This document shows, piece by piece, positions 10,323 to 51,744 of a stretch of DNA of 64,000 nucleotides. Position numbers and translations under genes: made by a program. Under the pieces are notes generated by a model that had not been told where the DNA came from, did not search any database, and was given only the letters and a program-made list of their open reading frames with translations. This DNA comes from Ulva prolifera. Taxonomy: Eukaryota; Chlorophyta; Ulvophyceae; Ulvales; Ulvaceae. Location: the NCBI GenBank assembly GCA_023078555.1, contig CM041197.1, positions 7,844,842 to 7,908,841 of the forward strand, given 5' to 3'. How positions within the stretch are numbered: position 1 is the stretch's first letter; each line of letters opens with the position of its first letter.

Positions 10323-10327
10323 GACAC
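10323..10327. repeat. Candidate 5-bp target duplication, left edge of array
   Basis: GACAC immediately precedes the first base that matches the later units. The same five bases follow the last matching base at the right edge, 41741-41745. This suggests that the array entered as one insertion event, though a five-base match can be chance. Confidence 0.5.
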
Positions 10328-11366
10328 CAGGCAAAAATCAAGCTAACCATCGACACGCGAATTCGGTCCTGGGCAGATGCACATCATTGTATATGCTTCG
10401 CCCATTCTAAAGGCATACAGTGATGACGTTGAGGTTGTGCTATGATGCTCATGGCCTGTGGACTCACAAATGCGTGCAATGGGTGTGCTGCCCGAATTTT
10501 CAGCACGCATGAATGGCAGCACATACTAGACATATAGCAGCTCGGTGCTCGCAGCCCGGAATTGCCCGGCCTTTTGACAAACTGTCACACCTGCTCCTGT
10601 CTCTCCACTGTGACGCTGCTTCGTCTACTTGTGCAAGGATCACAGTAACACCGACATCAACAATCACATCACTCAGCAATATTTTCACACAGTCAAGCGA
10701 GGCACTACAGCGGCCGCGATCGCAACAGAATGCAGCAACACGCTATTGCTGCTATGTGCTACAAGGGCAGCTATAGCCCACCATATCATGCTCTACAAAG
10801 TGCTGTGAATTTGGGCGCCCGTTTTGCACATCCCTGTTCGCCCGCCCCAGCCATCGCTGCGGATCGGGCGTGCCCTCGCAATTTTCACGCGGTGTTTACA
10901 AGTTCTCCCCTGCTCTGTGGTGGCTTGGGGTGCGCTGTGCACGCCTGCTGGCTGCTCTGCTACTCATTTGGCCCAACCTATGGATTCTCGATGGTTAGCT
11001 TCCATTCTAGCCGAGCCTGGGTGCCACCCTGAGCACCATGGCCTCAGCTACAGGCCATTTGCGTTGCGGCCTGCTTCAAACTCATTAGGTATGGATGATG
11101 TATCTGCACCGGTGATGCTACGGAAAATTCTTCACTGAATTCTTTTCACGGACTGGATAGCATGTACGTGTCCACCGGGGACACATGCTAGTACTGCAGG
11201 CATTTGCATTAAGCCCTGGACGTAACACAGCATAAACGATGTGCGAAATGGCTGCAAGCATGACAAATTGCAGCGTGTGGTGTCGGCTTTGACTGCTGTG
11301 TCGCATACCGCACCTTCGGCAACGCACCAGGCGCTCGTGGCAGCATGCATCGTCACTGTTGCAAAT

Positions 11367-14300
11367 ATGGCTCCGTCGTACAAACGGCTGAGCGCTAGAA
11401 CTCGATCTCATCTCGTGAATATCGTTTCAAGTTTCTTGAACGAGGACGACTTGAAAAAGGCATCAAAAGGCGCATTCGAGAAGGAGAATTTCCTCAGCGA
11501 TACCGGGAAAAAACAATATCGCCAGTCCCCGATCTCCAGTGCCGTGGCTCTGATTTGTAATGACGCTGAACTCCTCGAACAGTTGGAGTTTCCATCGCAG
11601 CAGCCAGTTTCAGAGAAGGTGACGGTGTCTGTCAAGAATGCATGTGCCTATTGGTTCTGGCAGGTCGCAAAGTGCAAGCGTCAAAGCTTCCAAGACAATG
11701 TTGAATTGTCGGGTAGCGCAGGGAGCTGGGCACCCTAGCGAGCGTACAGAAACGACAGGAGAGAAGGACTCGGGTAACAATGTAGCACACAGTGGAATGA
11801 CTGGAACAGGAGCGCCCCAATCGACCAAAGGTAATTGTGTCGATCACAGCAAAACACTTGGAATATATGTGCCCAGGTCCATCCCTGCTTTGTGCTGTCC
11901 TCGCTACTGATAGCTCGTGGAACTGTGGAATCGCGCTGCTCGTTGATCTCTGTACGGATCAGGGTGCAGCATCCCGCGAGATCTGGCGATCTGCTGCGGG
12001 CATTGGGATTTGGCATGTATCATCCTCCGTCAATCCAATGCAGCAACATCGTGCTGCGTGGATACGCAGACGTAGGTTGGCTGGCATGGTCTTTGACGCT
12101 GCACCCTTGGCGTGCGCAAGCGCAGACCAGGAGTATGCATGCGCCGCATGCATGACGTGTCATGCACTGAGCTGGCACTTCGCACTGCCAAAAGGCTGTG
12201 GCAAAAGGTGGCATGATACATGGGATTGGTATGTGAGATTATACATGTTGAGGAATGCTAGTGGCACTTTTGGGCATGTGGAATTATGCACATGTAGCTG
12301 TATGCATGCAGCTCATGTGCACAGCTGTGACGTGGTACATGCTGGCATTCTGAGGTATTCTTTGGTATACTTTCGCCTGGCTCAAGTTTTGCAAGGCACT
12401 AGCCTGAGATACATACACATGTATCCACAATTGGTGCCTGCATATCTGGAATAGGTGTGCTTCTGAGCAGACAGACTTGGCCATTACAACACCTCCCCCC
12501 ACACACGGGAGCGGAGCAGGGCAAACAAGAGTATGCTCTGCAAGCTCAGGGCAAGTCTGGAAGCTCAGGTAAGCAGATAAATGGAGACAGCACATTGACT
12601 TGAATGGTAGGGTACATCATAAGACCGGGGCAATGTGGTATTTACAGAGAAGGGTCTACTCATCTGGAATACGGATGAGTGACCTTGTTGGAATTAAGGC
12701 TAGTTCTAGAGCTGGCTGGGGAACTCATCGCAGAGATCGTGGAAATACTCTGGCAACAATTGACGACCTGAGTAGCGGTTTATCATTTCACTCATGGCCT
12801 CATCTAGGTCTAGGACTGCATCATGCAGCCTGCGAGTAACTCTTCTGACATGGCAGAGGTCAGTGAGGTACTGAGAGTGGTAGTCTCCAAGCGCTGGCAT
12901 TGTAGTGGCATCTAGCATCAACTGGCGGACGTTCTGGAGAAAGCGTCGACGCTGGACGAGGGAATGGGATGTCGGATCTTGTGGGATCTCAGGGACTGGC
13001 AAGTTTCTAACTGCACACATAGGTGGGTTCAGATGATGGAATTGGGTCTGTCGGGTTTTATGGAAGTCACATGATGGAAAAACAGGTTGGTGCCCCGCGA
13101 CATGCAACCTGGCGGATCAGATTTAGGCAGGGGTTGGCCTTGCTCCCGGGAGCCCCCTCCTCACATCACCTATGGCCTGGAAATCCCCGGCCTCACAGAG
13201 GCAGTCTGCTTACATCCAGGCGTCCCCTTCAGCATCACAGCGGGGGGGCAGCATTAGCGCACATGCGCTTTGCGGACTCAGTCCGCATCCTACCACAATA
13301 ACTGCAGTAGGTGACCCTGGAAAGTGCTGCCTTATGGGATTCGCTCAACCGAGAACTACGTCTACGCGGTTTGCGTTTGGGATCGTCGATGTTGCTGCCA
13401 CCCGCGGGCACCTTCCCCCCAGCGACGGGACGCCTGGTGGATTCAGCCTTGGCTGCTATATGGGACAGATGTAGCCGCGCTTCACGCGGAAACTCATGAA
13501 TCATGTGCGCTCTCTGAGTACTGGAGGCATTGTGGAACAGATAATCGGCAACTTTCTCCAGGCATCCGGACAACTCATCAACTGGTAACCAAGAGTCATG
13601 AGATGCATCGTAGCCAACCCAGCGCACCAGGTAGTGAGGGCACGCGATGGAGATGTCGTCATCGCGATGCCGCGACTGCATGTAATTGACTACACATTCA
13701 ACTTCATAAGTGGTCGTGTCCACAGTGGCCGATGACTTGGCAGCTTCAGGGCTGGTGGCGCATGCAGCATCGAAGGACTCATTGTAAGGTTTCAGCACAG
13801 AGAAGTGAAAGACATCATGTAGACCTAGACGCTGCAGCGTGGTCGGCAATGATATACGGGCCGCGGCCCGGCCCACTACTTCCAGAATTTTACAGGGACC
13901 CAACCAACGCGGAGTAAACTTCTTTCGGAGAGATGGATGATGCAGAGCAACCTTACGTATAGATAGCAGGACCAAATCACCCACAGAAAAGGTCGGCCAA
14001 GCAGATTTCCTGTTGAAATCCGACCACATTGACTGCTTGGCCTCTACCAGAGCTTGCTTTGCTAGGAAGTAATACATGCGGTGCATCACAGCTGGAGCTG
14101 GTTGCTGATGCTGTGGCAATTTGAGCGCAAGGGCTGTGGGAGACAGCGGCGGAGTGATACGGTTCAAAGAGAACGGCGTGCAGCCCGTGGCTGCCGACTT
14201 GGAGCTATTCATACTGAACTCGATATGTGGCAGGAATGCATCCCAATCATCATGTGCAGGACCGATGAAATGCCGAACAGCTTCTTCCACAACGCGATTG

Positions 14301-17300
14301 TAACGCTCAACTTGCCCGTTGGCTCTAGGATGGTAGGAGAATGTCAGCTGCAATGCAATGCCTAGGTGATCACAAAGGGATGTGAAAAAATTATTGTTCC
14401 ACTGCGTACCGCGGTCACTACAAATGCCAAGTGGCAGGCCATAATGGGGGTATATGTGCTGGAAAAACAATGCAGCGAATCCGGGACCATTCAGAGTAGA
14501 CACTGTGGGGATCAATCTTACCATCTTGCTGAATTGATCAACAAATACAACAATGCAATTGTGACCAGACGTGGAGTTAGGCAGTTGCGTGATCATGTCT
14601 ACACTCACGACACGCCAGCATGCAGAAGGTACAGGTAGTGGGGACATGACTGCCTCCCGCTCCGACGGGGACTTCATGGTCTGACAGCTATGGCATTGTG
14701 ACACAAATTTCTTGACATCTTTGTGTATATCTGGCCAGTAAAATGAGTCTGTGATCAATGATGCTGTGCGAGAGACACCCATGTGTGCATGCCAGGGGTG
14801 TACGTGGTGCCACAACAGAATTTGCCGGCGCAAGTGATCATGATCAGGGACAACAATCTTGTTCTTGTGCAGATAAATCTGGTGCTTAGGGTCGTAATGG
14901 TATGATGCAGGTGGCTCGGCAAAATCAGAATCATGTGCATAGCCACTACGCAATCGCTGCCAGAAGTCGTCCGCGTGCAGATCTAGAGTCAAGTATTTGT
15001 TGGATTGTTTCAGAAGCAGCTCTGCTTGTGAGTGCGTACCCACACGCTGTGCGTCGACTGCGCGGCCGTCACACACCAGGTCCTCCTGGTCGACCCAGTC
15101 CACCGCGGAAGCATCCGGCTGCGCGGTTGCTACGTCGTCCTCACGCGCGGGCTGTTGGTGGAGGGGTGAGGCCGAGGAATTCGGCCTCCTCCGCTGTAGG
15201 CGCGAAGTCAATGTCTGACATTGGAGATGGGGTGCGGAGGCAACCAGGAGCGGTCGCAGAGAACGGCGGCGGGTCGGCGTTGGCATGGGCCGGCGGGGAA
15301 GTGGGGATGGGGGCGGTGGCAGCGCTGGCGGAGATCCCGTTGGCATCAACACCGGGGACCGCTGAGACTCCAGCTGCTCGCCCATGCGGGGGCTGGACCC
15401 CGAGCTGATGGAAATCACTGATGGCGGCGGCTGCGTGGGCCGCCGTGGGTCCTGTGGCTGGGACAGAGGTGGAAATTGCGACTGGGAACGCAGGTCTGGC
15501 ATGGGCGGGGACAGGCCGGGCGGGGGTGAACCGAACTTCTCCCGTAGCCGGGAGTAGTCGCAGGGCTGGGGAGAGATTGTTGGCAACGTCTGGTGGTATG
15601 GAATGGCCTGATTCATCGGCGACTGGCCAGATGATATGGCCGTTGATCCAGTGCTGGCGATTGGAAGCTCGTATCCGCTTGGATCCGGGGATGGGGAAGA
15701 GTGGCATCTGCGTGCTATAGCCGTGGTCAGACTTACGGCCGGAAATGCATAAGAAACTTGCACTGGAATGGCATTTCCCGCACGAGAGGCACAAGAAATG
15801 GGATGGTCATCATGCAGTTGTACTGTCATGGTAGGCAGGTGCGTGGCACGAGACACTGCATCAGCCACCACGTTCTTGTCACCAGGCACGTACATGATGT
15901 GCCAGTTGATGCGGGACAGCGTCTCTACCCAACGCGCTTGCTTGTTATTCAAGCGTTGCTGGGTCTGCAAGTATCTCAGTGGATTATGGTCAGAGTGGAC
16001 ATACACGGGGTGGCCATTTTCCAGATAGCAACGCCATTGGCGTGCAGCAAAAACAATGGCGCCCAGCTCTTTTTCAAAAGTGGCATGGTGGACCTCAGAG
16101 GAATTCATTTTTCGGCCTACCCATGCAATGGGATGCAGAGCTGCTTCATGGTCTTGCATCAAGACAGCTCCATAGGCATAATCACTGGCATCTGTGTATA
16201 CATGGAAGGGCTGGTTGAGATTGGGATGGCGCAGGCCTGTGGCATTGATCAGAGCATGTTTGATGTCATTGAATGCTCGAGTGCATTGTTCAGTCCATGC
16301 GCTCTTGCCTTTGGCTTTCATGCGCTCGAGGAGTGGGGCAGCAAGGGTGGGAAATTTTGGAATAAATCTGCGAAAATAGCCAGCAAGACCCAAGAATGAT
16401 CGGATGGTATTGGTTGACGATTTTAAATCAGCCTCAGGCCATTGTTGCAACACTGAAACCTTGTGTGGGTCTGGCTTCACGGTATCTGCTGTAACAATAT
16501 GGCCCAAGTATTTGACTTCTTGCATGGCAAATTGGCATTTGACAGCATTGCAGAAAAAGTTGTGTTCATGCAGCCTAGTCAACACACGATCAAGATTGAT
16601 GGCATGATCCTCAGCAGTTCTGGAAATGATGATAATGTCATCGAGGTATGCAAGGCAAATCTTGCCAATCAGTCCACGCAAAACCACGTGCATTGCTTGT
16701 TGGAAAACACTCGGTGCATTGGTGAGACCGAATGGCATCACCGTCCATTCGTACAGGCCATCAGGGGTGCGGAATGCAGTTTTTGGCTGGGATGTCGGGG
16801 CTAGTCTGATCTGGTGATATCCAGAAGCAAGATCCAATGCAGAAAAGTATCTCTGGCCTTGCAATTTATCAAGCAAGGCATCTATGCGTGGTAATGGGTA
16901 TGTATTCTTTACTGTGTTCTCGTTCAGGTAGCGGTAGTCGACACACAGTCTCAGTTTACCTCCGGGTTTGGGAGCAAAAAGGACGCTGCTTGCCCAAGGG
17001 GAGATGGACGGCTGAATCCAGCCCATGTCAAGCAAGTGTTGTACCTGCTTTTCCAGTTCAGAGTGTTCCAGTGGAGTCAATCTGTACTGGCGGGCAGCAC
17101 GTGGTCTGGTGCCAGGCAGATTCTCAATATTCATCTCAAAGCCTAAGGCTGTGGTATTTGGGGGTGCAGGCCCGAGCGTGCCTCCGGACCTAGAATGTTT
17201 GTGTACTATCTCTTGAACACACTGTGGGATGGTGGCTACATCTTGCTGGACTGGTGCTGGTACTTGCTGCTGGGACAGAAAACCTTTCTTTTTCGACGCC

Positions 17301-20300
17301 GCACATACATGCATATCGCTGGAAGGCTCGACGCGTGCATGTGCTGGTTTGACATGCACCACGTACAGAGGCGACTTACCACATTTAGCACGATTGACCA
17401 TAGATTTCAGCTTACGGCTGGTGCATGCATACTCATCTGATGTTCCCTGTGAAGCAGGTGTGCGTTTGGGTATGTGCACGACATGCTGCCAATCACGAGA
17501 ATGCTTTCGGGGGCCAGCCTTACGGCCAGGCACGATGATGCGAATGTCCGGATCATCAAACTCGAGTTTCATGTGCGTGACGGCAATCACATCAAGACCC
17601 AATAGCGCGTGATTGGGTGCATGCCACTCTGCAGCCGGCAAACTTGCTACCACAGTGTACGTGACATCGTGACGCTGGCGGCCTATGCTTGTGCATAATG
17701 TGACAGTACCGAGGCAGGGTGCTGCACTCCCAGAGATGCCATGCGACGTGGATGCGCTTTGGTGATATGGTATGGCATTGGCCTGTAGGAATTCTACTGT
17801 AATCATGCTGTGATTGGAGGCTGTGTCTACAAGCGCCTTCAAGCGGCTGCCTTTGATGTGGATGGGGACTGTGCAGATCAGATCGACAGCGTCAATTTTC
17901 TGACTAGCACAAGACATAGCAGATGTATTTAGGCTCTGCTGGTTGGACATCAATCGCAAAACATGGAACGTCTGGTGACCTGGCACTGGGCGGCCGTCCG
18001 TATAGGACAACAATGCATTGGCTTTGTCCACTGTGCTGTAGCTGTGTCTGCTAGTGTACGGCACGAACGCATCACTATCAAACAAGCGGCCAGGGATGGC
18101 TACTGTGACATGGTGCCCATTCAGGTTGATGGCATGTAAATGTCTCAATGCTACGTGTGCATCATCAGTGTATGGCAAGGTAACAACAATAGGGCAGGAT
18201 AGCGTGGAAATATCGAATAATGACTTGTCAGCTGTGCTGAGCGAGGAAGGAAAAACAATGCCGTGGCCTGAGGCGTGGTCAGCCGCTAGTACAAAAGGCT
18301 CCACCGCCCAAGATGGGCAGCCAAGAGGCGGCTTGCCAGTTTCTCAACGGATATGGTTGCCAGGGGCACGTGCTCGTTTGTTCGGAGTCTGAGGGGTATC
18401 ATCATACCGTTTGCGATTGCGGGGGCCCGCGGAATTTGGAGTGTTTGCCGCGCTCTGCGGCTGCGGCTGCGGCGGCGGGGGTGGTGGCGGCGGTAGCTCG
18501 TCGGCGGGCTCCACTGCCATCAGGCACTTGTTCTTGTTGGCAGGGTGTTGCGCCCAGGTTGCGAGTGCCTCCGGCGCAATGGAACGCGCGGTAGGGCAGT
18601 CCGCGATGCGGTGGTACCTGTCGCTGTCAGGCATGGAGGAGGGGCAGATGCCGCAAACTCGCTTGCGGTGGTGGAAAGTTGCTTCCAAGAGGAATATCCC
18701 GACGGCCACGGGTGTGAATGGAAGGTAGTAAGGGAGCTCTTTACGGCAGGCTGCCGCAAGACCGTGGATGGTGAATGGCGCGTTGTGGTTGGCAACTTCA
18801 AACGCATACACATCTTTGATCCACTGTGGTACGGTGGGGCTGTCCATGGCATTATCGAGCCAGGCCTGCTTCTGTTGGAATGGAAGCTTACGGGCGTCCC
18901 GGAGGCCTGGTAAGCGCTCCCGGGTGACGCTGGAACATGGCGTAGATGGCTGCACATATGTTGAACGGTTGTTAGAAAATTGGCTGCGACTCTGGCCTGG
19001 TCTTTGGGTATTGGTATATGCCATGGCAATCTGCCGCTGGCCTCGTTTTGGTGCTGATGTGTGGCCATGGGCTGGCATCTCACGGGTGGGGGTGGTATGG
19101 GTGCTGGTGGATGCAAAATCTACACCCTGGTAATGGTTGGCAGAGAATGTGGCAAAGCGCTTGGCTGTGTTGGCTGTCTCCTTGGCTGTGTTCAGCTTGT
19201 CCACACACCATGTGACAAATGCTATGGCATGTGAATTTGCGCGCTCGGTCGGCCATGTGTGGCTGTTCTCCAGATGTGTGGTCAATTTTTGTAGCAGGTC
19301 TGGTAGTGGCATGAACATTTTGACTGTGGCTGACAATTCTGAGGTGCACTCAGGTGACATGAGGTGCTGCAATTTGTCAAACAAGTTCCATGCAAAATCT
19401 TGCAGGGACATTTTGCCTGGCAAGTCCACATAATCGAGAAAGATCAATTGGTAATATATGCGGACATGATGCACCAAGTCATTGAAGCTGGAGGCTTTTC
19501 CAGCACGGTATTTGCTCCAGGCTCCCTCGATATGCATTCTGAATTGCCCGTTGGTAAAGAAAAAGTCACGTATGGCATCCAGCCATTCACGAACGGTGCA
19601 CTCAGGAGACATGGCTTTTTCTGTGGCAACCTGGTAGTGCATGGCATCACGAGTGAAACCCTTGGACAAATGTTTGATCACCTGGGCCTCAGATAGTTTC
19701 ATGCATAAGACGCGGTTGTTCAAAACTTCGCACACGTAGTGATGCCACTTTCGCTCAGCGGATGCATCGCCGCGAACCGCATCAGACAAAGGAAAATGTA
19801 TGGATGCGAAGAAATAATCAGCAGACCTAAACCAGGTTGCACTCGAGTCGTCTGTGAAGTTCGGGGTGTACGATGGCAGGCTCGACACGTGAGGCAGGGA
19901 TGACAGTACCAGGTTCGATCGCACGATGCCGGCGTACTGCAGCGCGGGCGCTGCTGCCACCTGCGCGGATGTCGCGCGGAACAGCTGCTCCTCGAAGTAG
20001 TTCGCTGTAGTCCCAGGTAGGATAGACGCTGCTGTGTACATGGACCGTACGATCGGCTCAATGGCGCTGACGGCGAGGGTGGCGAGCTGCGACACCATGG
20101 CCGCGGGGCTGGAGCTGGTGCTTCTTGCGCGATGCGACGTGACGCGCAAGGCGAGGGCAGGGAAGTCCAGGTGGGAGTGGTCCACAGGACACTGTAGCCA
20201 TACGGTTGCCCAGGCAGCAGCATCTGTAGAGAAGGAATATACGAAGTCCAGAATGGTGGCAGCGAGGGCGCCCCCAGTCCAGGTGTAGAAGGCCATCGCG

Positions 20301-22780: not shown

Positions 22781-23405
22781 CCACTTGCGTGTCCAGTACA
22801 GTATGCAGCTGTTCTGTCCATGCCTGGTGACCTGCAGCCATATCGCACCAGCGCAGGCGCATGAACTGCATGCCCTCATTCTGCACCAGAGCAGCTTTAT
22901 GACAGTCGCGCTGCACAGTTGCATTGAAGCTATCATTGAGGCACAGGCCATACTGCCTAGGCTTGTGCTCATGATCAATGCCATCTAATTCTATCACGAT
23001 TAGCTGTCCGATTGCTGTGGCATGCAAAGGTATCAGAACAACATCACATCTTGTGCCATGCAACGGTAGCTGCACGCAGATCACGTACGCTTCAGTTCTA
23101 GCATGCACAATTCTCTTTACCTGTTCTAGCATCAAGCACTCTTGCCTGTTTCTACCACCCTGTTGCTCACACACACTGCATTTATATTTTCCATCCTTGC
23201 GTAGCTGCGCACACGTATACTCCTTGGACCTGACCAACAGGCAGCCACAAGCGGCTGCTGCGACAGGTACAAGGTCTCCTGTTTGAAAATCCCACCATCT
23301 CCTGGGAGGTGTGTCCCTGTTCAGGACCAGCCAGAATGGCCTGGGTAAGTCCACAATGAAGCCTCTTGCATTTCCTTGCTGCAATAGCTGACCCTGCACA
23401 ACCAC
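22773..23405 (-). CDS. PD-(D/E)XK nuclease (DUF559/Vsr-like) with Cys-rich zinc-ribbon-like region, unit 1
   Basis: This is an open frame of 210 codons. Residues about 50-90 are Cys-rich (CGC, then YTC, then YKCSVC, then EC), suggesting a zinc ribbon, preceded by an aromatic RRWWDF. The C-terminal half has the order seen in DUF559/Vsr-like nucleases: RCDVVL (Asp about 121), LIVIELDGIDHE (Glu 139, Asp 141, His 145), QRDCHKAAL (Asp 167, Lys 170), EG (Gly 178), MRLRW. The fold is inferred from this motif order. There is no ATG near the start: the frame opens at a stop about 20 codons upstream and the first usable codon is GTG, so a 5' exon ending at the AG before 23391 is possible. It is convergent with P1 (8-bp overlap) and back to back with the coiled-coil gene. 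Its likely role is DNA cleavage, perhaps for mobility. Confidence 0.65.
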   Translation of the reverse strand: MVVQGQLLQQGNARGFIVDLPRPFWLVLNRDTPPRRWWDFQTGDLVPVAAAACGCLLVRSKEYTCAQLRKDGKYKCSVCEQQGGRNRQECLMLEQVKRIVHARTEAYVICVQLPLHGTRCDVVLIPLHATAIGQLIVIELDGIDHEHKPRQYGLCLNDSFNATVQRDCHKAALVQNEGMQFMRLRWCDMAAGHQAWTEQLHTVLDTQVVR

Positions 23406-27551: not shown

Positions 27552-28176
27552 CCACTTGCGTGTCCAGTACAGTATGCAGCTGTTCTGTCCATGCCTGGTG
27601 ACCTGCAGCCATATCGCACCAGCGCAGGCGCATGAACTGCATGCCCTCATTCTGCACCAGAGCAGCTTTATGACAGTCGCGCTGCACAGTTGCATTGAAG
27701 CTATCATTGAGGCACAGGCCATACTGCCTAGGCTTGTGCTCATGATCAATGCCATCTAATTCTATCACGATTAGCTGTCCGATTGCTGTGGCATGCAAAG
27801 GTATCAGAACAACATCACATCTTGTGCCATGCAACGGTAGCTGCACGCAGATCACGTACGCTTCAGTTCTAGCATGCACAATTCTCTTTACCTGTTCTAG
27901 CATCAAGCACTCTTGCCTGTTTCTACCACCCTGTTGCTCACACACACTGCATTTATATTTTCCATCCTTGCGTAGCTGCGCACACGTATACTCCTTGGAC
28001 CTGACCAACAGGCAGCCACAAGCGGCTGCTGCGACAGGTACAAGGTCTCCTGTTTGAAAATCCCACCATCTCCTGGGAGGTGTGTCCCTGTTCAGGACCA
28101 GCCAGAATGGCCTGGGTAAGTCCACAATGAAGCCTCTTGCATTTCCTTGCTGCAATAGCTGACCCTGCACAACCAC
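27544..28176 (-). CDS. PD-(D/E)XK nuclease with Cys-rich zinc-ribbon-like region, unit 2
   Basis: This is the unit 2 copy of the nuclease ORF, with the same 210-codon frame and the same predicted protein as in unit 1, including IELDG and DCHKAAL. Its neighbours are P1 (convergent, ending at 27551) and the coiled-coil gene (divergent, starting at 28177), the latter interrupted here by the Copia element. Confidence 0.65.
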   Translation of the reverse strand: MVVQGQLLQQGNARGFIVDLPRPFWLVLNRDTPPRRWWDFQTGDLVPVAAAACGCLLVRSKEYTCAQLRKDGKYKCSVCEQQGGRNRQECLMLEQVKRIVHARTEAYVICVQLPLHGTRCDVVLIPLHATAIGQLIVIELDGIDHEHKPRQYGLCLNDSFNATVQRDCHKAALVQNEGMQFMRLRWCDMAAGHQAWTEQLHTVLDTQVVR

Positions 28177-31100: not shown

Positions 31101-34100
31101 GGCCTGGGACCCGAGGAGGAACTTCAACGTCAGGGTGGGCAGCTGCACGAGCAATCGCACGCGTGCGATGCATGGTGTGCCTGGCCACCTCCGGTGTTTC
31201 CCGCGCAGGGTCACGCCGGAGCACCTCAGCGGAGGAACCTGCGCCAAAACGTGGAGAGTACACTGCCTCATCAGGCAGTGCGTCCTGTCTGAACGTCATG
31301 TCCATGACAGGGACTCTACCATGACCTGGGGGGGCGTGCGAGAATTCACGCAGACGTCGCAGCACTCCCCCATCATGTGTGGAGTCAGTGACGAACGAGG
31401 GGACATCACTGTCAGTCACGCGGACACCCTCGTCATCACCCTCAAAGACAACCTGTAGGGAGTTCGCAAACTCTGCAGGTTCTCTCTTGTCCACAACAGC
31501 GGACGCATCGTACTTACGTACGTGTCGGATCATCTGATCCGTGGTGCACATGATTTGCCGCACCACCACAACCCTACCCCCAGGAACGTCCTGGGCGTAC
31601 ACACGCTGCATGCTGGGCCCCAGCCCAGCACCAACCCAGTATGCTACCATACCCCTCGCGGACAATTTCCGCAAGTGATCATCCCTAGGGTACGCATACA
31701 CCTCAACCCCCCATGGACGCTGCTGCTTCACCAAATCCTGGAACACCTCAACGGAGGTGTCTCTGAAAAAAGACATGTAGGGAATGATATCCCTGTCACA
31801 AGACCTGGTCAAAAACTCGTCCAGTTCTGTCATAGTGAGCAACTCCCACTTGCGCTTCTCCTCCTCCCGCAACTTATCACGTTCGGCCTTTTTCATGCGC
31901 TTATTAGCCCGCTCAGCCTGCTGTACATCCGCAGCTGTATTAGCATCACGCTGAGCTTTCTGGGCTTTCATCATTATTGCCAGTTTGTCATGGTACAGCG
32001 CCGAGCACGGCGTGAGATTGTGACCATGGATGACACTGGCAAGGCATTCAATCCACAGAAACAGAGGAAGACCGCTCGCAAGCAGTACAGCTCGGACCGC
32101 CTCGAAGGCAATACCGATCCTCCGCTCGATCATGCCATTACAGCGATGATCAGCCGTGGGGGTGGTGCGGTGAGTAATGCCACGACGCTGGAGGTAGAGC
32201 TTTAAGGCCTCAACCATGAACTCTCCTCCTTTGTCGGTGTGAAGGATGCGCACACCCGGTTCACCTGGCTTCACCACATTCACCCGAATGCGCTCAATGA
32301 TGTAAGAGATCATGGCCGCAGCCTCACTCTTCTTACGCAGACCGACAATGAAAGTATAACGCGTGAAGGCGCACATCACAAACAAAACATACTTCACACC
32401 GCCGATCCCAACTGGAGTGATGGGACCAGCCAAATCAGCATGCAATTGCTCGCCAGGGTATTTCGCCTGGCCTAAGAGCTCACGATTATTGGCTGAGATT
32501 TTGCCCGCGGGCACTTTGCCAATTCTGCAGCCGTGACAACGATTCCCCATTGGCTCGGGGTCAACTTTCAAATTCAGGTCACCATAAAAATCACTATTTG
32601 ACTGCATCCTTTTTAAGACCCACGTCGACTGATGAAACGACAAATGAGCTAAGAATGCAGGTTCCAACAAGTAAGCATCATGTGGGACCTCAGCTCCCCC
32701 AGCATTGGGACGCTTCAGGTCGATTGCCGCAGCGGCCACATGACACCACTGATTTTGATCTGCCACAACAGAGGTCGGACTGCTCTGGTCAGACCACACC
32801 ACTCCCCTGTTGACAGGATGACCCTCAAGAACAGGCTTCTTGAGGGAACACATTTTGAAAGCAAAGACGCGACAGTTATCCTCATCCAGCTCCTGGTGTT
32901 TGGACGCATCCTCAATACCAGTAGCCATATCTCCGAAACCGGGGACATACAACACACTCCTACGCGTGTCTAAGTAAATCTTCTCGTGACGAAGACCCAT
33001 AGTACTCAGTATGTTGTATGGACACTCAGGGGCATAGTACACACCCGGGATTTCCACATCCAGAGGATGCGTATTCCCATGCTCATCTACATAGGTGCCC
33101 AGGTTCACCTGAATGGTTCCCCTGCCCATAATGGGGATCTTGCCTGGTCCCGCGGGATTGGCAGTTCTCTGGCACGGACCATACTCAGTGAACATGTCGC
33201 GATTGCCAACAATGTGAATGTCAGAACCACTATCAATGATAAAATTCCATGGTGCTAATGCATCATGATCCGGGAACTCTTCAGGCAGTTCTACAGCACA
33301 AACATCTTTGGCCGCGGCCTGTTTGCGCTGGGGGCAGTTCGCACGCAAGTGTCCCTTCTTCTTGCAGAAGAAGCAGGTCCTGGTCTCCTCGCGAGGAGCC
33401 TTGCCAGCGTCAAGCGCGGCGACCGCAGGACCGTCGCCTCGCTGCTGATTGCGCCAGCCTTGGCCTGGTTTGCCCGCGGGCGGTCCAGACCTAGCCTGCA
33501 GCCGCTGCTGCTTGAGCAAATCAGCATGCTCAGTCAAACGTGCAATGATGACATGGGGGGAGGAGTGTTGGACTTCGCCGCGCACGGCATTGAACTCCTC
33601 CCCCACTTCTAAAAGTTTTAATCGGAGCCATCGCTGGCCCACATCGGCACCTAGTGCCTCCAATTGAGTGTACACACTCATCACTTCACCACAATAAGAC
33701 CCAACGTCTCTATTGCGCTGTGACAAAGAGTTGAAGCGACTCCACAGTCTGTGGATCTCGGCTTCAGTGCTAGGCCTATACTTTGCAGTAAGATAGGCCC
33801 ATGCCTCACACAGATGTGACATGCGATAGACAGTGGTCCTATCCGCGTCAGGCAAAGACATGAGGACTTGAGTCCTTGCTCTAGCGTGGACACGCTGTTC
33901 GTCCGCGGACGGTGCGTGCTGCAACAGATGATCTAACTCGAACTGTCCTAACCACAGAAAGACTTTCTGCTCGTACGCAACGAAGCTTTCGGTCTTAAAA
34001 TTCCATTCAGGCAATTTTCCTTTAGACAAATCAGGCTCGTTACGTCCCCGAGATGCACGCAGTGCTTCGGTCAACGTCTCGAGCGTAATGAATGACTCAG

Positions 34101-35854
34101 TGTGACCATGATCGTTCACAACATGAGAGGAAAAGGGCACCTGCTGGCTGCTCTGCCCAGTCTGGGAAGAGGAACGTGGTCGGATAACTCGTCCGCCACG
34201 AAGTAACATGCCCGCGGGCTGTTCTTCGTCAGGGAGCTGTTGCTCAGCTTCCCTGTCGACGAATGGCTGCTGATCAGCCTCGCCCTGCCTCTCCTCGCGA
34301 GGAGCGTTGGCGTTAGAGCGATCGGAGTTAGACATCCTGCAGTAGGACGGAGGGTGGTTTGTCGCGCGCAGCAAACTAAACCATGGGATGGCTCGCAAGC
34401 CTACAGGTTGAGAAAATAAACGAACGCATTCGCTTTTCCCAGCGCCGATCATTAAAGCAAGCGTCTCGAATTGTATCTAATAACAATGTGCTACGAGATC
34501 GCCTAATGATGCCTGCGCTTATGACCGCGGTCTGAGCGCCGGCAGAACAGTGGAATGCCCGCCGTGTCTGCGCACAGACTTTGGCCGACGGCTTCCTGAA
34601 CAAGACCGTAAAAGACATAGCGCAAACATTCACCGATACCATGTTAGAAAGGCTATCCTTCGTCAGGTCAGACACGCAGTCCTTACGTCAAGTCAGGAGA
34701 CCAACATCTCATACCTGCTGCGCACAGAGGTAGAACCAGAGAGATGCACGGGGAGACAGAGTACAGCCAGTACCGTGAAACAGTAAGAATAATGGTTACA
34801 GCTCTCCAGTGTGCACAGCCATATATGCACACTGAATAGTCAAGATTACGGCGGGAGATCCTCGCAGGATCTCCCTCACTACTCCGGGACAATCCGGCTG
34901 GCGGCTTACCCCTACACATGATCCGCGGATCATCCGTGCATGGGTGCACCTGTCACCACGCTGCTGCCCGCAGGCGCATGCATTGTGACAAGGTGAAGGA
35001 GGCAATGCAGAATATACAAAAAAGAGAAGCTGAAGCCAAAGAAGCAGAAGACCTTGCTGCTGATGCACCAGCAACCCTGGCTGCAGCAGAAACTGCATTG
35101 GCGGAGGCACAACAACACCTTGCATCATTATCTACACAGTCTGCAGTGTGTACAACAGAATTCTCACAGGCTGTGAGAGGGGTGTGGGCTGCCGACGCAG
35201 CAAAGAGCAAGGCAGAAGAGGAGGCACCGAAAGCAGATGCTGTTGCAAATGCTGCTGCAGAAGCACTTGCCAAAGCAAAGATGGAGATGCAGGAGCTTTT
35301 CAGTGCATGGGTGCCAACATTTATGCCATTCTTTCTGTCTATGGACAACTGCAGGTCATACAGCTTGTATGAGGGCTGCAGCAAAGACAGATTGGTGCAT
35401 GTGATGCCCCTCCTACAGGTGCCCTACCCCAACCTCATGACATCCACCAGTGTGACATGCAATGTGCGTAGTGGCAGCGATTTAGGCTTGGATGATGCCT
35501 GTGCAGATGGTTGCCATCCCTCCCCATGCTCATGACATCCACCAATGTCCTGAGCATGCTATTGGAGCTACAAAGGGATTTGTGACAAACTACATACGTC
35601 GTCATGTTGCGTCAATGAAGAAAATGAGTGACACAGAGCTGCAGCAACTGGTGAGAGAAGGGGCAGCACAATATACAGCTCAAAGCTGGAGAGAGAATAT
35701 GGACAGGCTGATGCAGTGCTTACGGCTCATATCTGCGCCTACAGATGAGTGGGTCACTGTGACGCATCATGCGGGGGCAAGTAGTGCTAAGCGGCGCATG
35801 ACTGAAAAACGCAGGGGCACGGATGGTAATTATTGCTACCCAGACTTCAGCTAG
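28177..35854 (+). CDS. Array coiled-coil protein, unit 2 copy, split by a Copia insertion
   Basis: This is the same gene as at 23406. The Copia element sits inside exon 1 (28423-34990), with the target AGGTG duplicated at 28418-28422 and 34991-34995. The gene resumes at 34996. Its intron is 35419-35506 and its last exon 35507-35854. Because the units to both sides have an uninterrupted exon at the same point, this insertion is younger than the amplification of the array. Confidence 0.6.
28423..28771 (-). repeat. Copia-1 3' LTR
   Basis: This 349-bp LTR matches 34642-34990. It ends TGTGACA and is followed by a purine-rich tract (minus strand) at about 28772-28779. Confidence 0.95.
28789..34452 (-). 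CDS. Copia-1 Gag-Pol polyprotein (1887 aa)
   Basis: A single open frame. In order: Gag with a CCHC zinc knuckle (CFFCKKKGHLRANC), protease (FIIDSGSDIHIVG), an integrase zinc finger (HLSFHQSTW ... CHGCRIGK) and core (HADLAGPI, HTDKGGEFM, NGMIERRIG), a long acidic linker, reverse transcriptase (WVDDLFIFS) and RNase H (SDADFANSADLKS, TTEAELIAMS). Integrase before reverse transcriptase is the Ty1/Copia order. Confidence 0.95.
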   Translation of the reverse strand: MIGAGKSECVRLFSQPVGLRAIPWFSLLRATNHPPSYCRMSNSDRSNANAPREERQGEADQQPFVDREAEQQLPDEEQPAGMLLRGGRVIRPRSSSQTGQSSQQVPFSSHVVNDHGHTESFITLETLTEALRASRGRNEPDLSKGKLPEWNFKTESFVAYEQKVFLWLGQFELDHLLQHAPSADEQRVHARARTQVLMSLPDADRTTVYRMSHLCEAWAYLTAKYRPSTEAEIHRLWSRFNSLSQRNRDVGSYCGEVMSVYTQLEALGADVGQRWLRLKLLEVGEEFNAVRGEVQHSSPHVIIARLTEHADLLKQQRLQARSGPPAGKPGQGWRNQQRGDGPAVAALDAGKAPREETRTCFFCKKKGHLRANCPQRKQAAAKDVCAVELPEEFPDHDALAPWNFIIDSGSDIHIVGNRDMFTEYGPCQRTANPAGPGKIPIMGRGTIQVNLGTYVDEHGNTHPLDVEIPGVYYAPECPYNILSTMGLRHEKIYLDTRRSVLYVPGFGDMATGIEDASKHQELDEDNCRVFAFKMCSLKKPVLEGHPVNRGVVWSDQSSPTSVVADQNQWCHVAAAAIDLKRPNAGGAEVPHDAYLLEPAFLAHLSFHQSTWVLKRMQSNSDFYGDLNLKVDPEPMGNRCHGCRIGKVPAGKISANNRELLGQAKYPGEQLHADLAGPITPVGIGGVKYVLFVMCAFTRYTFIVGLRKKSEAAAMISYIIERIRVNVVKPGEPGVRILHTDKGGEFMVEALKLYLQRRGITHRTTPTADHRCNGMIERRIGIAFEAVRAVLLASGLPLFLWIECLASVIHGHNLTPCSALYHDKLAIMMKAQKAQRDANTAADVQQAERANKRMKKAERDKLREEEKRKWELLTMTELDEFLTRSCDRDIIPYMSFFRDTSVEVFQDLVKQQRPWGVEVYAYPRDDHLRKLSARGMVAYWVGAGLGPSMQRVYAQDVPGGRVVVVRQIMCTTDQMIRHVRKYDASAVVDKREPAEFANSLQVVFEGDDEGVRVTDSDVPSFVTDSTHDGGVLRRLREFSHAPPGHGRVPVMDMTFRQDALPDEAVYSPRFGAGSSAEVLRRDPARETPEVARHTMHRTRAIARAAAHPDVEVPPRVPGQARLSGAPPARTVEYVVTRNARLHDPGIKAASVLPMPSLSSDDSMDDDDDDDGPGIYDEDDADEMEEYTISDDERAAAHQNREAQRVRSGSNSAAASASGAGAVAKPLRGAEGLRPSWEDEPDEIEMESGSELGGEIQAAPSAAVGVDLPDEVRAIPAALPRIKINPLVRRRLVPLAVDVAAVHEPAGSDHASSETVVADIKSPGCNQDTSAAADCGVSGAGLKHQHGEPGEQHSAQRRGSRRAAAARKQKPSDPDLPSMKEGLAGPDRDAWLRAMQEEVEALGEHGTFMLCYLPAGKKAISGKWVFKIKRGPAGEIQRYKARYVARGFSQVEGIDFFETWSPVGSYATLRVLLSIAAQEDLEIRHIDIQCAFLNGDLEEEVFVEQPPYFTDGTARVWKLHKTLYGLKQAAREWHKALVKVLAELGFVCAQSDPGLYVRTTGRCLIFLWVDDLFIFSCSAGLQEIISVILTKFEGRDLGDLSWALGTEITRDRKAKTITMTQRNKIQNLLDKYSMSDCRKSPTPLVPRQQLRSVKEHPDLEKASAAEHSRFMSAVGSIQYIAGVTRPDLSYVAHALARHMSSSLKEHWSAVQHVLRYLQSTKNLGIKFVGSEGHGCLLEAFSDADFANSADLKSVSGMIVRVYGNCVLWRSKKQSIVAGDTTEAELIAMSATANELMWMKQLLLDVKLAPHKPTLWGDNKSANILAVNAVSTDRSKHIRVRHLRVREYVQMDELKVAWVGTVDQLADVFTKVLPGPALQEVRNKLQLVET
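34642..34990 (-). repeat. Copia-1 5' LTR
   Basis: This 349-bp LTR lies directly beside the primer-binding site at 34631-34641. Confidence 0.95.
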
Positions 35855-36194
35855 ATGGTAAGAGAATGGCAATAGGCACTCTGCTAACGCGAATGAACAC
35901 ATTAGCTAATTATACGGGTGTTGTGGTGGAAGCATACCGGTAAATCTGCAGGATCGACGACCATCCCTGTCCAACCGCCTCGGTGCCACGGCCTGCCCTG
36001 CCGGCGCACAGTCCTGTATATCGTCCGAGATCTCCTGCACATCGCTCTAAAATTAAACCTTTACACCAGTTGTATATGCCTAATCGCATGTGATCGCCCT
36101 GAGCCTGCTCCTATTGACGACGACACTCAACGAGCACGAGCGGATAGAGAGAAACAGATCGTGCCACGAGAACAGGTACCACACACTTCAGGCT

Positions 36195-36380
36195 ATGGAA
36201 CAACTGAATCGCTGTGCGTGCATGAGTTCAGCGGCCGCGATAGTTCAACGAATCACACGAAAACAGCGTGGCAAAGCCCACGCTCAGGCAAAAATCAAGC
36301 TAACCATCGACACGCGAATTCGGTCCTGGGCAGATGCACATCATTGTATATGCTTCGCCCATTCTAAAGGCATACAGTGA
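36195..36380 (+). CDS. Small basic ORF crossing the unit 2/unit 3 boundary (61 aa)
   Basis: This is the same ORF as at 24851 with one visible change (T to A near 36251, Phe to Ile). Coding status is uncertain. Confidence 0.35.
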   Translation: MEQLNRCACMSSAAAIVQRITRKQRGKAHAQAKIKLTIDTRIRSWADAHHCICFAHSKGIQ

Positions 36381-37323
36381 TGACGTTGAGGTTGTGCTAT
36401 GATGCTCATGGCCTGTGGACTCACAAATGCGTGCAATGGGTGTGCTGCCCGAATTTTCAGCACGCATGAATGGCAGCACATACTAGACATATAGCAGCTC
36501 GGTGCTCGCAGCCCGGAATTGCCCGGCCTTTTGACAAACTGTCACACCTGCTCCTGTCTCTCCACTGTGACGCTGCTTCGTCTACTTGTGCAAGGATCAC
36601 AGTAACACCGACATCAACAATCACATCACTCAGCAATATTTTCACACAGTCAAGCGAGGCACTACAGCGGCCGCGATCGCAACAGAATGCAGCAACACGC
36701 TATTGCTGCTATGTGCTACAAGGGCAGCTATAGCCCACCATATCATGCTCTACAAAGTGCTGTGAATTTGGGCGCCCGTTTTGCACATCCCTGTTCGCCC
36801 GCCCCAGCCATCGCTGCGGATCGGGCGTGCCCTCGCAATTTTCACGCGGTGTTTACAAGTTCTCCCCTGCTCTGTGGTGGCTTGGGGTGCGCTGTGCACG
36901 CCTGCTGGCTGCTCTGCTACTCATTTGGCCCAACCTATGGATTCTCGATGGTTAGCTTCCATTCTAGCCGAGCCTGGGTGCCACCCTGAGCACCATGGCC
37001 TCAGCTACAGGCCATTTGCGTTGCGGCCTGCTTCAAACTCATTAGGTATGGATGATGTATCTGCACCGGTGATGCTACGGAAAATTCTTCACTGAATTCT
37101 TTTCACGGACTGGATAGCATGTACGTGTCCACCGGGGACACATGCTAGTACTGCAGGCATTTGCATTAAGCCCTGGACGTAACACAGCATAAACGATGTG
37201 CGAAATGGCTGCAAGCATGACAAATTGCAGCGTGTGGTGTCGGCTTTGACTGCTGTGTCGCATACCGCACCTTCGGCAACGCACCAGGCGCTCGTGGCAG
37301 CATGCATCGTCACTGTTGCAAAT

Positions 37324-38895
37324 ATGGCTCCGTCGTACAAACGGCTGAGCGCTAGAACTCGATCTCATCTCGTGAATATCGTTTCAAGTTTCTTGAACGA
37401 GGACGACTTGAAAAAGGCATCAAAAGGCGCATTCGAGAAGGAGAATTTCCTCAGCGATACCGGGAAAAAACAATATCGCCAGTCCCCGATCTCCAGTGCC
37501 GTGGCTCTGATTTGTAATGACGCTGAACTCCTCGAACAGTTGGAGTTTCCATCGCAGCAGCCAGTTTCAGAGAAGGTGACGGTGTCTGTCAAGAATGCAT
37601 GTGCCTATTGGTTCTGGCAGGTCGCAAAGTGCAAGCGTCAAAGCTTCCAAGACAAGCCCCGCAGAACAAAAGCCGACTGGAATTTACACTACAACGACTT
37701 TCAGATCTTGGGGCACTTGTTGACGACCGTGGAGTGGCTGGACTCGCAACGCAATTGGCGACGTTATGGCAGTCTCGAGCACATGCTGCAGGATGGGTTG
37801 CACATACTGGAGACGGGCGTGGGCGTCTCGAGCGAGAAGCTGGTGGAGCTGCAGCTCCACGTGGATGAACTGAGACGCATCAAGGAGAAAGCAACTGGTC
37901 GTGCACATGATAACCTGGACATACTGCTCCCCCGTGTCTGCGCGAAGTGCAGGTGCAGCACCGAACCCAGACGTCGCACCTGTAGCCATCCTCTGGTGGC
38001 GCACGTAGCCATCCTCTGGCGCAACATGCATGTGTTGTCTTGGGGCACATGTGGACATCCTCTGGGGCACATGTATAGTGTGCATGCATGCTGGTGGTGA
38101 TGCAGGCTCAAGATGTCCAAGGAGCAGTTCAAGTGCCCACGGGAGTACTCAAAAGCTGTAGAGTGTGCAAGGACGTGGCGCGGGCTCGAACCAATGCTAT
38201 GCTACTTCTTCGCCAAAACGTATCCGAAAAGCAACGGCAAGATCAGCAGGTACACTGCAGCGTGGGAGAAGCATCTGATGTTGTCGCACGTTCCGGATGT
38301 GAGCGACGACATGCAAAAATCAGAATTTGCAGCTGTGGGCGACGTCAGATGTGCCTGGGACAAGTTCATAACACATGCCACAGCTGCGGGCCTGTACGTC
38401 TTACGCAGGACCACCTCGGTGTTCGATCTGCAGTGGTACATGGACGGGTTCACGGTGTATCACTGCCGAGCTAACGATGCCATCGGTAACATTGTATTCG
38501 TGAGGAGGGGAGAATGCCTGCCAGTATACGTTCATGAGGACTGTGGCCAGTCTCCCGCATCAAAGCAAGTTTCGAAGCAGCACTACTTCCTGGTTGTGGG
38601 GCCAGGGGGGGTGCTTGTTTGTTGTGCGATGAGGAGTGCCACCACACTCTCGCACGAGGGCCAGAGCTCCAGTCCTGCGAAGCGAAAGGCAGACGACCAA
38701 TTCGAGTTCTGGTACGACTTGATCCCCAAGATGTTGGCCCCTGGAGACCTGGGTGATGAGGACCTGGAAGAAGTTCGCTGCCGAATGGCTGGCACGAGAT
38801 GGGTGGTGTGCTCCCCTGTACATGTGTGGATACCAGGCAACATTGTATATGGCAGGACAATACGCATTGTGTTGTTTGTTTTACAAGCTACCTGA
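37324..38895 (+). CDS. Array protein P1, unit 3 (472 aa, two exons), function unknown
   Basis: This is the same gene as in unit 2, in the uninterrupted unit. Exon A is 37324-37952, the intron 37953-38105 and exon B 38106-38895. The few substitutions between units leave the reading frame untouched. Exon B contains WYMDGFTVYHCRAND and QFEFWYDLIPKML. There is no signal peptide. The conserved frame in all units suggests that it was functional when the array formed, though the array may be too young for this to show selection. Confidence 0.6.
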
Positions 38896-39520
38896 CCACT
38901 TGCGTGTCCAGTACAGTATGCAGCTGTTCTGTCCATGCCTGGTGACCTGCAGCCATATCGCACCAGCGCAGGCGCATGAACTGCATGCCCTCATTCTGCA
39001 CCAGAGCAGCTTTATGACAGTCGCGCTGCACAGTTGCATTGAAGCTATCATTGAGGCACAGGCCATACTGCCTAGGCTTGTGCTCATGATCAATGCCATC
39101 TAATTCTATCACGATTAGCTGTCCGATTGCTGTGGCATGCAAAGGTATCAGAACAACATCACATCTTGTGCCATGCAACGGTAGCTGCACGCAGATCACG
39201 TACGCTTCAGTTCTAGCATGCACAATTCTCTTTACCTGTTCTAGCATCAAGCACTCTTGCCTGTTTCTACCACCCTGTTGCTCACACACACTGCATTTAT
39301 ATTTTCCATCCTTGCGTAGCTGCGCACACGTATACTCCTTGGACCTGACCAACAGGCAGCCACAAGCGGCTGCTGCGACAGGTACAAGGTCTCCTGTTTG
39401 AAAATCCCACCATCTCCTGGGAGGTGTGTCCCTGTTCAGGACCAGCCAGAATGGCCTGGGTAAGTCCACAATGAAGCCTCTTGCATTTCCTTGCTGCAAT
39501 AGCTGACCCTGCACAACCAC
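38888..39520 (-). CDS. PD-(D/E)XK nuclease with Cys-rich zinc-ribbon-like region, unit 3
   Basis: This is the unit 3 copy, in the only uninterrupted unit. Its predicted product matches those of units 1 and 2. Like them it lacks an ATG near the start. It lies between P1 (ending 38895) and the coiled-coil gene (starting 39521). Confidence 0.65.
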   Translation of the reverse strand: MVVQGQLLQQGNARGFIVDLPRPFWLVLNRDTPPRRWWDFQTGDLVPVAAAACGCLLVRSKEYTCAQLRKDGKYKCSVCEQQGGRNRQECLMLEQVKRIVHARTEAYVICVQLPLHGTRCDVVLIPLHATAIGQLIVIELDGIDHEHKPRQYGLCLNDSFNATVQRDCHKAALVQNEGMQFMRLRWCDMAAGHQAWTEQLHTVLDTQVVR

Positions 39521-40625
39521 ATGCAGACTCAGGATGGCAGGGAGTCAGAGGGTCTGGTGAAGGCTGAATTCCAGGCTGTGATGCAATATTTAATCGTGCC
39601 TCTCATACAGAAGGAGGTGCAGAGGCTGGTGGATACCAATGCACCCACGTTTTCAGGAAAACCCATCAAGGACATTGTAGAGGAGTGGAGAGAAAAGCTG
39701 CAAGGGGCCTACCACTGTCTGACACAGCAGCATTGGGTCTGTGATTGCCCCAGCCCCAAGCAGGTGAAGGAGGCAATGCAGAATATACAAAAAAGAGAAG
39801 CTGAAGCCAAAGAAGCAGAAGACCTTGCTGCTGATGCACCAGCAACCCTGGCTGCAGCAGAAACTGCATTGGCGGAGGCACAACAACACCTTGCATCATT
39901 ATCTACACAGTCTGCAGTGTGTACAACAGAATTCTCACAGGCTGTGAGAGGGGTGTGGGCTGCCGACGCAGCAAAGAGCAAGGCAGAAGAGGAGGCACCG
40001 AAAGCAGATGCTGTTGCAAATGCTGCTGCAGAAGCACTTGCCAAAGCAAAGATGGAGATGCAGGAGCTTTTCAGTGCATGGGTGCCAACATTTATGCCAT
40101 TCTTTCTGTCTATGGACAACTGCAGGTCATACAGCTTGTATGAGGGCTGCAGCAAAGACAGATTGGTGCATGTGATGCCCCTCCTACAGGTGCCCTACCC
40201 CAACCTCATGACATCCACCAGTGTGACATGCAATGTGCGTAGTGGCAGCGATTTAGGCTTGGATGATGCCTGTGCAGATGGTTGCCATCCCTCCCCATGC
40301 TCATGACATCCACCAATGTCCTGAGCATGCTATTGGAGCTACAAAGGGATTTGTGACAAACTACATACGTCGTCATGTTGCGTCAATGAAGAAAATGAGT
40401 GACACAGAGCTGCAGCAACTGGTGAGAGAAGGGGCAGCACAATATACAGCTCAAAGCTGGAGAGAGAATATGGACAGGCTGATGCAGTGCTTACGGCTCA
40501 TATCTGCGCCTACAGATGAGTGGGTCACTGTGACGCATCATGCGGGGGCAAGTAGTGCTAAGCGGCGCATGACTGAAAAACGCAGGGGCACGGATGGTAA
40601 TTATTGCTACCCAGACTTCAGCTAG
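39521..40625 (+). CDS. Array coiled-coil protein (about 338 aa, two exons), unit 3
   Basis: This is the uninterrupted copy in unit 3. Exon 1 is 39521-40189, the intron 40190-40277 and exon 2 40278-40625. The intron and the start of exon 2 carry a short internal duplication around CTCATGACATCCACCA, which may have helped to create the intron borders. Otherwise it is as described for unit 1. Confidence 0.6.
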
Positions 40626-40965
40626 ATGGTAAGAGAATGGCAATAGGCACTCTGCTAACGCGAATGAACACATTAGCTAATTATACGGGTGTTGTGGTGG
40701 AAGCATACCGGTAAATCTGCAGGATCGACGACCATCCCTGTCCAACCGCCTCGGTGCCACGGCCTGCCCTGCCGGCGCACAGTCCTGTATATCGTCCGAG
40801 ATCTCCTGCACATCGCTCTAAAATTAAACCTTTACACCAGTTGTATATGCCTAATCGCATGTGATCGCCCTGAGCCTGCTCCTATTGACGACGACACTCA
40901 ACGAGCACGAGCGGATAGAGAGAAACAGATCGTGCCACGAGAACAGGTACCACACACTTCAGGCT

Positions 40966-41151
40966 ATGGAACAACTGAATCGCTGTGCGTGCATGAGTTC
41001 AGCGGCCGCGATAGTTCAACGATTCACACGAAAACAGCGTGGCAAAGCCCACGCTCAGGCAAAAATCAAGCTAACCATCGACACGCGAATTCGGTCCTGG
41101 GCAGATGCACATCATTGTATATGCTTCGCCCATTCTAAAGGCATACAGTGA
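40966..41151 (+). CDS. Small basic ORF crossing the unit 3/unit 4 boundary (61 aa)
   Basis: This is the third junction copy, matching that at 24851. It survives here because the partial fourth unit includes its 3' half. Coding status is uncertain. Confidence 0.35.
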   Translation: MEQLNRCACMSSAAAIVQRFTRKQRGKAHAQAKIKLTIDTRIRSWADAHHCICFAHSKGIQ

Positions 41152-41740
41152 TGACGTTGAGGTTGTGCTATGATGCTCATGGCCTGTGGACTCACAAATG
41201 CGTGCAATGGGTGTGCTGCCCGAATTTTCAGCACGCATGAATGGCAGCACATACTAGACATATAGCAGCTCGGTGCTCGCAGCCCGGAATTGCCCGGCCT
41301 TTTGACAAACTGTCACACCTGCTCCTGTCTCTCCACTGTGACGCTGCTTCGTCTACTTGTGCAAGGATCACAGTAACACCGACATCAACAATCACATCAC
41401 TCAGCAATATTTTCACACAGTCAAGCGAGGCACTACAGCGGCCGCGATCGCAACAGAATGCAGCAACACGCTATTGCTGCTATGTGCTACAAGGGCAGCT
41501 ATAGCCCACCATATCATGCTCTACAAAGTGCTGTGAATTTGGGCGCCCGTTTTGCACATCCCTGTTCGCCCGCCCCAGCCATCGCTGCGGATCGGGCGTG
41601 CCCTCGCAATTTTCACGCGGTGTTTACAAGTTCTCCCCTGCTCTGTGGTGGCTTGGGGTGCGCTGTGCACGCCTGCTGGCTGCTCTGCTACTCATTTGGC
41701 CCAACCTATGGATTCTCGATGGTTAGCTTCCATTCTAGCC
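41056..41740 (+). repeat. Partial fourth unit of the array (685 bp)
   Basis: This matches 10328-11012, 24941-25625 and 36285-36969 and then diverges abruptly into unique DNA beginning GACACGCAG. With the first unit it forms the long terminal direct repeat of the whole array. Its ends are CAGG and AGCC, not TG and CA. Confidence 0.9.
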
Positions 41741-41745
41741 GACAC

Positions 41746-51699: not shown

Positions 51700-51744
51700 A
51701 AACAGAGAAAATCAAAGGAAACTCTACGCCTAAGCGTTAAGAGT

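Follow-up and report, generated by a model that had tools for sequence, protein, structure and literature searches.

We analyzed a window of 64,000 nucleotides from the genome of the green alga Ulva prolifera (contig CM041197.1, positions 7,844,842 to 7,908,841; coordinates below are positions in the window unless a contig is named). At 10328-41741, the window contains a tandem array of a unit with three genes, which we call P1, the nuclease gene, and P3. Several units sit within one unchanged target site duplication (TSD), and we asked what kind of mobile element the array represents.

Layout of the array

Comparing the window to itself gave a period of 4771 bp, and BLAST analysis of the array identified three units, split by two younger insertions. 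The copies are 99.9-100% identical. An earlier interpretation of this DNA (the sequence-only reading) had reported an exact 4771-bp period with near-identical copies, and both comparisons bear this out. It had also described three full units plus 685 bp, at 10328-41740: the three units stand, but the tail is 686 bp and the array ends at 41741.

The array alternates between a 686-bp repeat, R, and a 4085-bp internal region, INT, in the order R-INT-R-INT-R-INT-R, or (R-INT)3-R, and one R-INT unit is 4771 bp. All of the segments are on the + strand: R1 (10328-11013), INT1 (11014-24940), R2 (24941-25626), INT2 (25627-36284), R3 (36285-36970), INT3 (36971-41055), and R4 (41056-41741). The four copies of R are identical to each other. 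Each is a long terminal direct repeat (LTDR) with inverted ends of its own; in R1 these are at 10328-10353 and 10988-11013, and the outer inverted end of R4 is at 41716-41741. The TSD is ACAC, at 10324-10327 on the left and at 41742-41745, directly outside R4, on the right. The two ends of the array have 687 bases in common: the 686 bp of R, which also separates the units, plus a single base of the target duplication. The sequence-only reading had proposed that the ends are circularly permuted. We rejected a circularly permuted concatemer as a description of the ends: both of them are outer termini of R, which is bounded by terminal inverted repeats (TIRs) and is also found on its own, and they lie inside one TSD, with ACAC outside both.

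Both of the nested insertions are long terminal repeat (LTR) retrotransposons on the - strand. TE1 is a gypsy-type element of 9,837 bp (11699-21535) with identical 793-bp LTRs and the TSD GACAA, whose second copy is at 21536-21540. It has reverse transcriptase (RT), RNase H, H2C2, and chromodomain domains, and dispersed relatives of it are present elsewhere in the genome. TE1 disrupts exon 1 of P1 in unit 1 and divides INT1 into 11014-11698 and 21541-24940. TE2 is a copia-type element of 6,568 bp (28423-34990) with identical 349-bp LTRs, RVT_2 and rve domains, and the TSD AGGTG, whose second copy is at 34991-34995; it disrupts exon 1 of P3 in unit 2 and divides INT2 into 25627-28422 and 34996-36284. 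Unit 3 is free of nested insertions and INT3 is intact. Both retrotransposons would have inserted after the array had formed. Once each of them is removed along with one copy of its TSD, the length of every unit is exactly 4771 bp. They vary at 4 of 4771 sites; two of the variants are private to unit 1 and two are private to unit 2.

We also considered whether the array might be an assembly artefact of a single-copy element. Near-identical units are easily misassembled, and a near-identical copy of R-INT on another contig (L042, C8:66441-69597) extends for 3157 bp and then ends in N. However, units 1 and 2 are each tagged by a different retrotransposon with its own TSD, and each has private substitutions, which makes an artefact very improbable. 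We conclude that the tandem array is real. The C8 copy has just one difference from unit 3, at unit position 953, where it carries a variant that is otherwise private to unit 2; this single site suggests a recent exchange or transposition between the C8 locus and the array.

Mobility of R and its insertion sites

R begins with CAGGCAAAA and ends with TAGCCG or TTTTGCCCG, so its termini are 5'-CA...CG-3'. These termini form inverted repeats about 26 bp long. In the array, they match at 19 of 26 positions, including all of the inner 14, and in the R subfamily of one dispersed copy (L036), the inverted ends have 1 mismatch in 29 positions (both by eye). The longest stop-to-stop frame wholly within R is 87 amino acids.

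To find other copies, we used R together with the beginning of INT as a query against the genome (44 contigs, 88.9 Mb). We scored 40 of 73 candidates, so the counts are lower bounds. There were at least 44 matches: 4 in the array, the partial copy on C8, and 39 others, which we merged by hand into at least about 34 solo R loci with 76-100% identity. Among the 15 highest-scoring of these roughly 34 solo copies, 9 have a perfect 4-bp TSD, 2 have a 3-bp TSD, 3 have one of four bases mismatched, and 1 has none. By comparison, 4-mers drawn in pairs from the flanks of solo copies agreed by chance in 167 of 30,000 cases. The duplicated targets include ACAC, TACT, CGCA, and TCTC; at 3-4 bp, and not TA, they differ from those of Tc1/mariner (IS630) elements. 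R moves, or has moved, without INT.

Uninterrupted counterparts of two insertion sites, that of the array and that of one solo R, exist in the same genome. For the array, we joined the two flanks with one ACAC to form a 400-base probe. Besides the flanks themselves, it matched C2:7820340-7820708, with 85% identity over bases 1-374 of 400. This alignment passes across the junction, where ACAC occurs once. On the left, there is identity over about 100 bases; on the right, there are a small number of differences and some short gaps near the junction. The match is an empty version of the array's site and lies in a duplicated region of the same contig, about 34 kb upstream. The second case is a solo R on C9, identical to the array's R, which splits one of two adjacent 49-bp repeats and leaves the other intact; the TSD is AAT (3 bp). 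Both R and the whole array were thus inserted at targets with duplications of 3-4 bp.

From its shared ends and the solo copies, the unit could be read as an LTR retrotransposon: tandem arrays of LTR retrotransposons and of terminal-repeat retrotransposons in miniature (TRIMs) also share terminal repeats head to tail and leave solo terminal repeats. We rejected this reading because of the TSDs and the inverted ends, which are about 26 bp and not TG..CA, and because no RT or gag was recognized in the unit (no Pfam match to either among five open reading frames [ORFs] of the unit and spliced P1 and P3). Separately, there is a hairpin in INT just ahead of R (by eye), which prompted a Helitron-like reading.

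The best explanation, to which we give a probability of roughly 0.74, is that the array is one insertion of a composite Class II DNA transposon, similar in construction to KolobokP (Kojima and Bao 2022, PMC9587614), that is mobile through its TIRs and was multiplied in place by recombination between copies of R. The monomer would be R-INT-R, 5457 bp. The sequence-only reading had favored a nuclease-bearing selfish element over an ordinary gene family, and the TIRs, the target duplications, the empty site, the dispersed solo copies of R, and the decayed relatives described below all support this.

The genes of INT and their relatives

In unit 3, P1 is on the + strand (37324-38895; exons 37324-37952 and 38106-38895), the nuclease ORF is on the - strand (38888-39544), and P3 is on the + strand (39521-40625; exons 39521-40189 and 40278-40625). 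P3 encodes a coiled coil followed by a SMDN...PEHAIG motif. The splice sites of P1 and P3 rest on the conservation of reading frames in diverged relatives; in particular, the frame of P1 exon 2 is kept in a decayed relative on C5. P1 may splice onward near 38826 into P3. The nuclease ORF lacks an ATG at its N-terminus, and a further 5' exon is possible. Diverged relatives in the genome support the spliced P1, the antisense nuclease, and the spliced coiled-coil P3 of the sequence-only reading; for the small junction ORF that it had added to this set, no separate support was found.

Two of the relatives are informative about the age of the unit. The C5 relative (L043), which is about 73% identical, retains the R-INT junction. 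Therefore, R and INT are old partners and not the product of a recent chance capture. (An insert of about 315 bp interrupts the end of R in this copy; it seems to have inverted ends of its own, GCCCCTATCAA...TTGATAGGGGC, as judged by eye.) A decayed relative on C2 (L044) has kept the gene order, with P1 exon 2 followed by the antisense nuclease and then P3. Nonsynonymous divergence (dN) is well below synonymous divergence (dS) in each gene: dN is 0.159 and dS is 0.896 for P1 exon 2; 0.291 and 1.240 for the nuclease (146 codons, compared to L044); 0.401 and 1.715 for P3 exon 1; and 0.092 and 0.967 for the start of P3 exon 2. These ratios (dN/dS of about 0.2) indicate purifying selection on all three genes.

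The nuclease has a zinc ribbon and a D...ELDGxDH...RD..K motif. In profile searches, which the sequence-only reading had recommended, relatives of it had weak matches to DUF2726 and MTES_1575, and P1 and P3 matched no family. The best structural match of the nuclease model is to the I-Bth0305I type (EDxHD or Vsr-like), although the model's confidence is low (pLDDT, the predicted local distance difference test, of 49.7). The motifs, the weak family matches, and VIA matches also favor a Vsr-like nuclease over a His-Me finger nuclease. Thus, the nuclease may have a Vsr/I-Bth0305I-like fold. It resembles the EDxHD homing endonucleases in its predicted fold order and its selfish-gene setting, but it differs from the I-Bth0305I type in having the extra zinc ribbon and the D...ELDGxDH...RD..K motif. 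PADLOC gave no match, and a sequence search of PDB gave nothing useful.

Because R has inverted ends and its insertions have TSDs, we propose that the element encodes a cut-and-paste enzyme. By eye, P1 has a conserved HED. P3 has SMDN and then, 40 residues on, the E of IPPHxxDIHQxPEHAIG. Together, these motifs could form a DDE triad that is spread over P1 and P3. If so, P1 and P3 would be one gene, and the nuclease gene would lie antisense within a large intron.

Alternatively, the three genes might be cargo between two copies of a nonautonomous TIR element, R, which is moved by an unrelated transposase encoded elsewhere in the genome. This would account for P1 and P3 being unrecognizable as transposases and for the lack of a long reading frame in R. 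However, the link between R and INT is older than 26% nucleotide divergence, all three genes are under selection, their order is maintained in L044, and the D and E motifs of P1 and P3 are conserved. We consider the cargo explanation unlikely.

It is similarly doubtful that a plasmid-like or virus-like R-INT circle integrated by homologous recombination at a solo R already in the genome and became a concatemer, with R as the transposon and INT as a hitchhiker. A circle that entered a resident R would give exactly (R-INT)n-R inside R's own TSD, and R does move, or has moved, without INT. The partnership of R and INT is old, though, and no replication or capsid gene was recognized among the three genes. 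Also, no relatives were found when viral contigs were scanned with alignments of P1, P3, and the nuclease. A scan of prokaryote genomes with P1 did not find any either; the nuclease and P3 were not searched there. A protein database yielded 5 matches to P3, 4 to P1, and 6 to the nuclease; the window's own entries account for 1, 2, and 1 of these, respectively. For P0003 and P0013, which are relatives of P3 and of the nuclease, the longest contig is 4768 bp, which is close to the 4771-bp unit and fits a circular element; it might represent a unit, in tandem or as a circle, of another species. Overall, the concatemer of a circular element that the sequence-only reading had suggested is neither required nor shown: one pair of TSDs around the whole array, with R at each boundary, fits a composite transposon that multiplied through recombination between copies of R.

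Comparison with KolobokP and a proposed mechanism

KolobokP is reported from seven animal phyla (PMC9587614). Its LTDRs are about 450 or 660 bp and have their own TIRs of 11-18 bp; solo LTDRs and multimers of the form (LTDR-INT)n-LTDR occur; and the TSDs are 3-4 or 4-5 bp. The transposase gene is followed by a nuclease gene on the complementary strand, and the nuclease is of the His-Me finger (I-PpoI-like) type. Under a model that its authors call speculative, the homing-type nuclease provokes unequal crossover between the terminal repeats. TIR-directed transposition, recombination between copies of the LTDR, and an LTDR-INT circle are all among the models put forward for KolobokP.

The Ulva element is likewise organized as LTDR-INT-LTDR; its LTDRs carry TIRs of their own and are 686 bp long, compared to the class of about 660 bp. 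Solo LTDRs, multimers inside one TSD, and TSDs of 3-5 bp with no strong target occur in both, and in both the gene in the position of the transposase and the nuclease gene downstream of it lie on opposite strands. We considered whether the element might be a true KolobokP, of the Kolobok superfamily, with strongly diverged proteins. In favor of this, the architecture is nearly identical, the LTDR length, TSD range, and strand layout are similar, and the string CPEH after the presumed second D would suit the C/DxxH signature of Kolobok, whose DDE transposases also have zinc fingers. However, the C of CPEH is replaced by I in L044; the termini are CA...CG, but Kolobok elements are said there to follow the rule 5'-RR...YY-3'; and the nuclease, with its zinc ribbon and Vsr/restriction-enzyme-like motifs, seems to be Vsr-like and not a His-Me finger protein. 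Also, P1 and P3 are unrecognizable as Kolobok proteins and the host lies outside the seven animal phyla. A diverged KolobokP is therefore improbable, and we call the element KolobokP-like in construction, not a KolobokP. We did not find an algal counterpart of KolobokP in the literature, in a search whose coverage did not include subscription papers or Repbase.

There is also a likeness to bacterial composite transposons and IS26-type translocatable units, as these are described in the same paper: a core lies between two direct copies of an independently mobile TIR element. A possible circle of one repeat plus the core, and tandem units, are further similarities. In the bacterial elements, however, the transposase is encoded in the flanking insertion sequences (ISs), whereas here the genes are in the core and R has no long frame.

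If the array arose from a KolobokP-like composite transposon, we propose that P1 and P3, as one spliced gene or as two cooperating proteins, form a DDE-type transposase that acts on the inverted ends of R. R-INT-R, or R alone, would be mobilized through these TIRs. The antisense Vsr/homing-endonuclease-like nuclease would cut in or beside R. The number of units would then change, through either repair from an adjacent R or recombination with a circle of R-INT that had been excised, to give (R-INT)3-R with the TSD unchanged; such a circle, of 4771 bp, is one possible intermediate.

Several observations weigh against this proposal. No isolated R-INT-R monomer was seen in which both ends could be read. 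Within the array, R has imperfect inverted ends (19 of 26 positions), and among the 15 solo copies surveyed, 3 have a one-base mismatch in the TSD and 1 lacks a TSD. Family searches did not match P1 or P3 to any known transposase family, and the region of their motifs has no Pfam match. The sole direct test of a DDE transposase was negative: when the presumed D...E segment was compared by profile to three Tc1/mariner segments, the score was 7.9, and 176 of 200 shuffles scored at least that. The structure model of P1 exon 2 is unusable (pLDDT of 35), and the nuclease model, at 49.7, had no Foldseek match at E ≤ 0.001.

We see about an even chance that an independent, undescribed lineage of DNA transposons reached the KolobokP design with a Vsr/EDxHD-like nuclease and a transposase from outside the known superfamilies. 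If this is correct, then combining a transposase, a homing-type nuclease, and direct repeats would be a repeatable strategy for gaining copies without moving. KolobokP was presented in the 2022 paper as having no counterpart among DNA transposons. Another element that shares its architecture and strand layout, but apparently has a different nuclease, would suggest selection for transposition together with induced amplification in place, and it would provide a comparison for testing this dual mode of increase. The locus itself offers precise evidence of insertion (an array-wide TSD and two empty sites in the same genome), an array with different retrotransposons marking its units, and a possible new transposase family.

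Other repeats were noted as well. The contig has another tandem array (C2:6495933-6514099, L061-L065), with four copies at a spacing of about 5954 bp. Each copy has a 369-amino-acid Tc1-like frame (DDE_3, E = 1.2e-4) and satellite-like subrepeats of about 350 bp, and there are two further copies of this frame, at C2:6883511 and C9:3145173. We rejected this array as a sister of the 4771-bp unit, as there is no DNA similarity between them. Downstream of the array in the window, a 235-bp direct repeat with 99.6% identity occurs at 47485-47719 and 53488-53722, 6 kb apart, and a local tandem repeat at 51722-51939 has a 96-bp period made up of subunits of about 32 bp.

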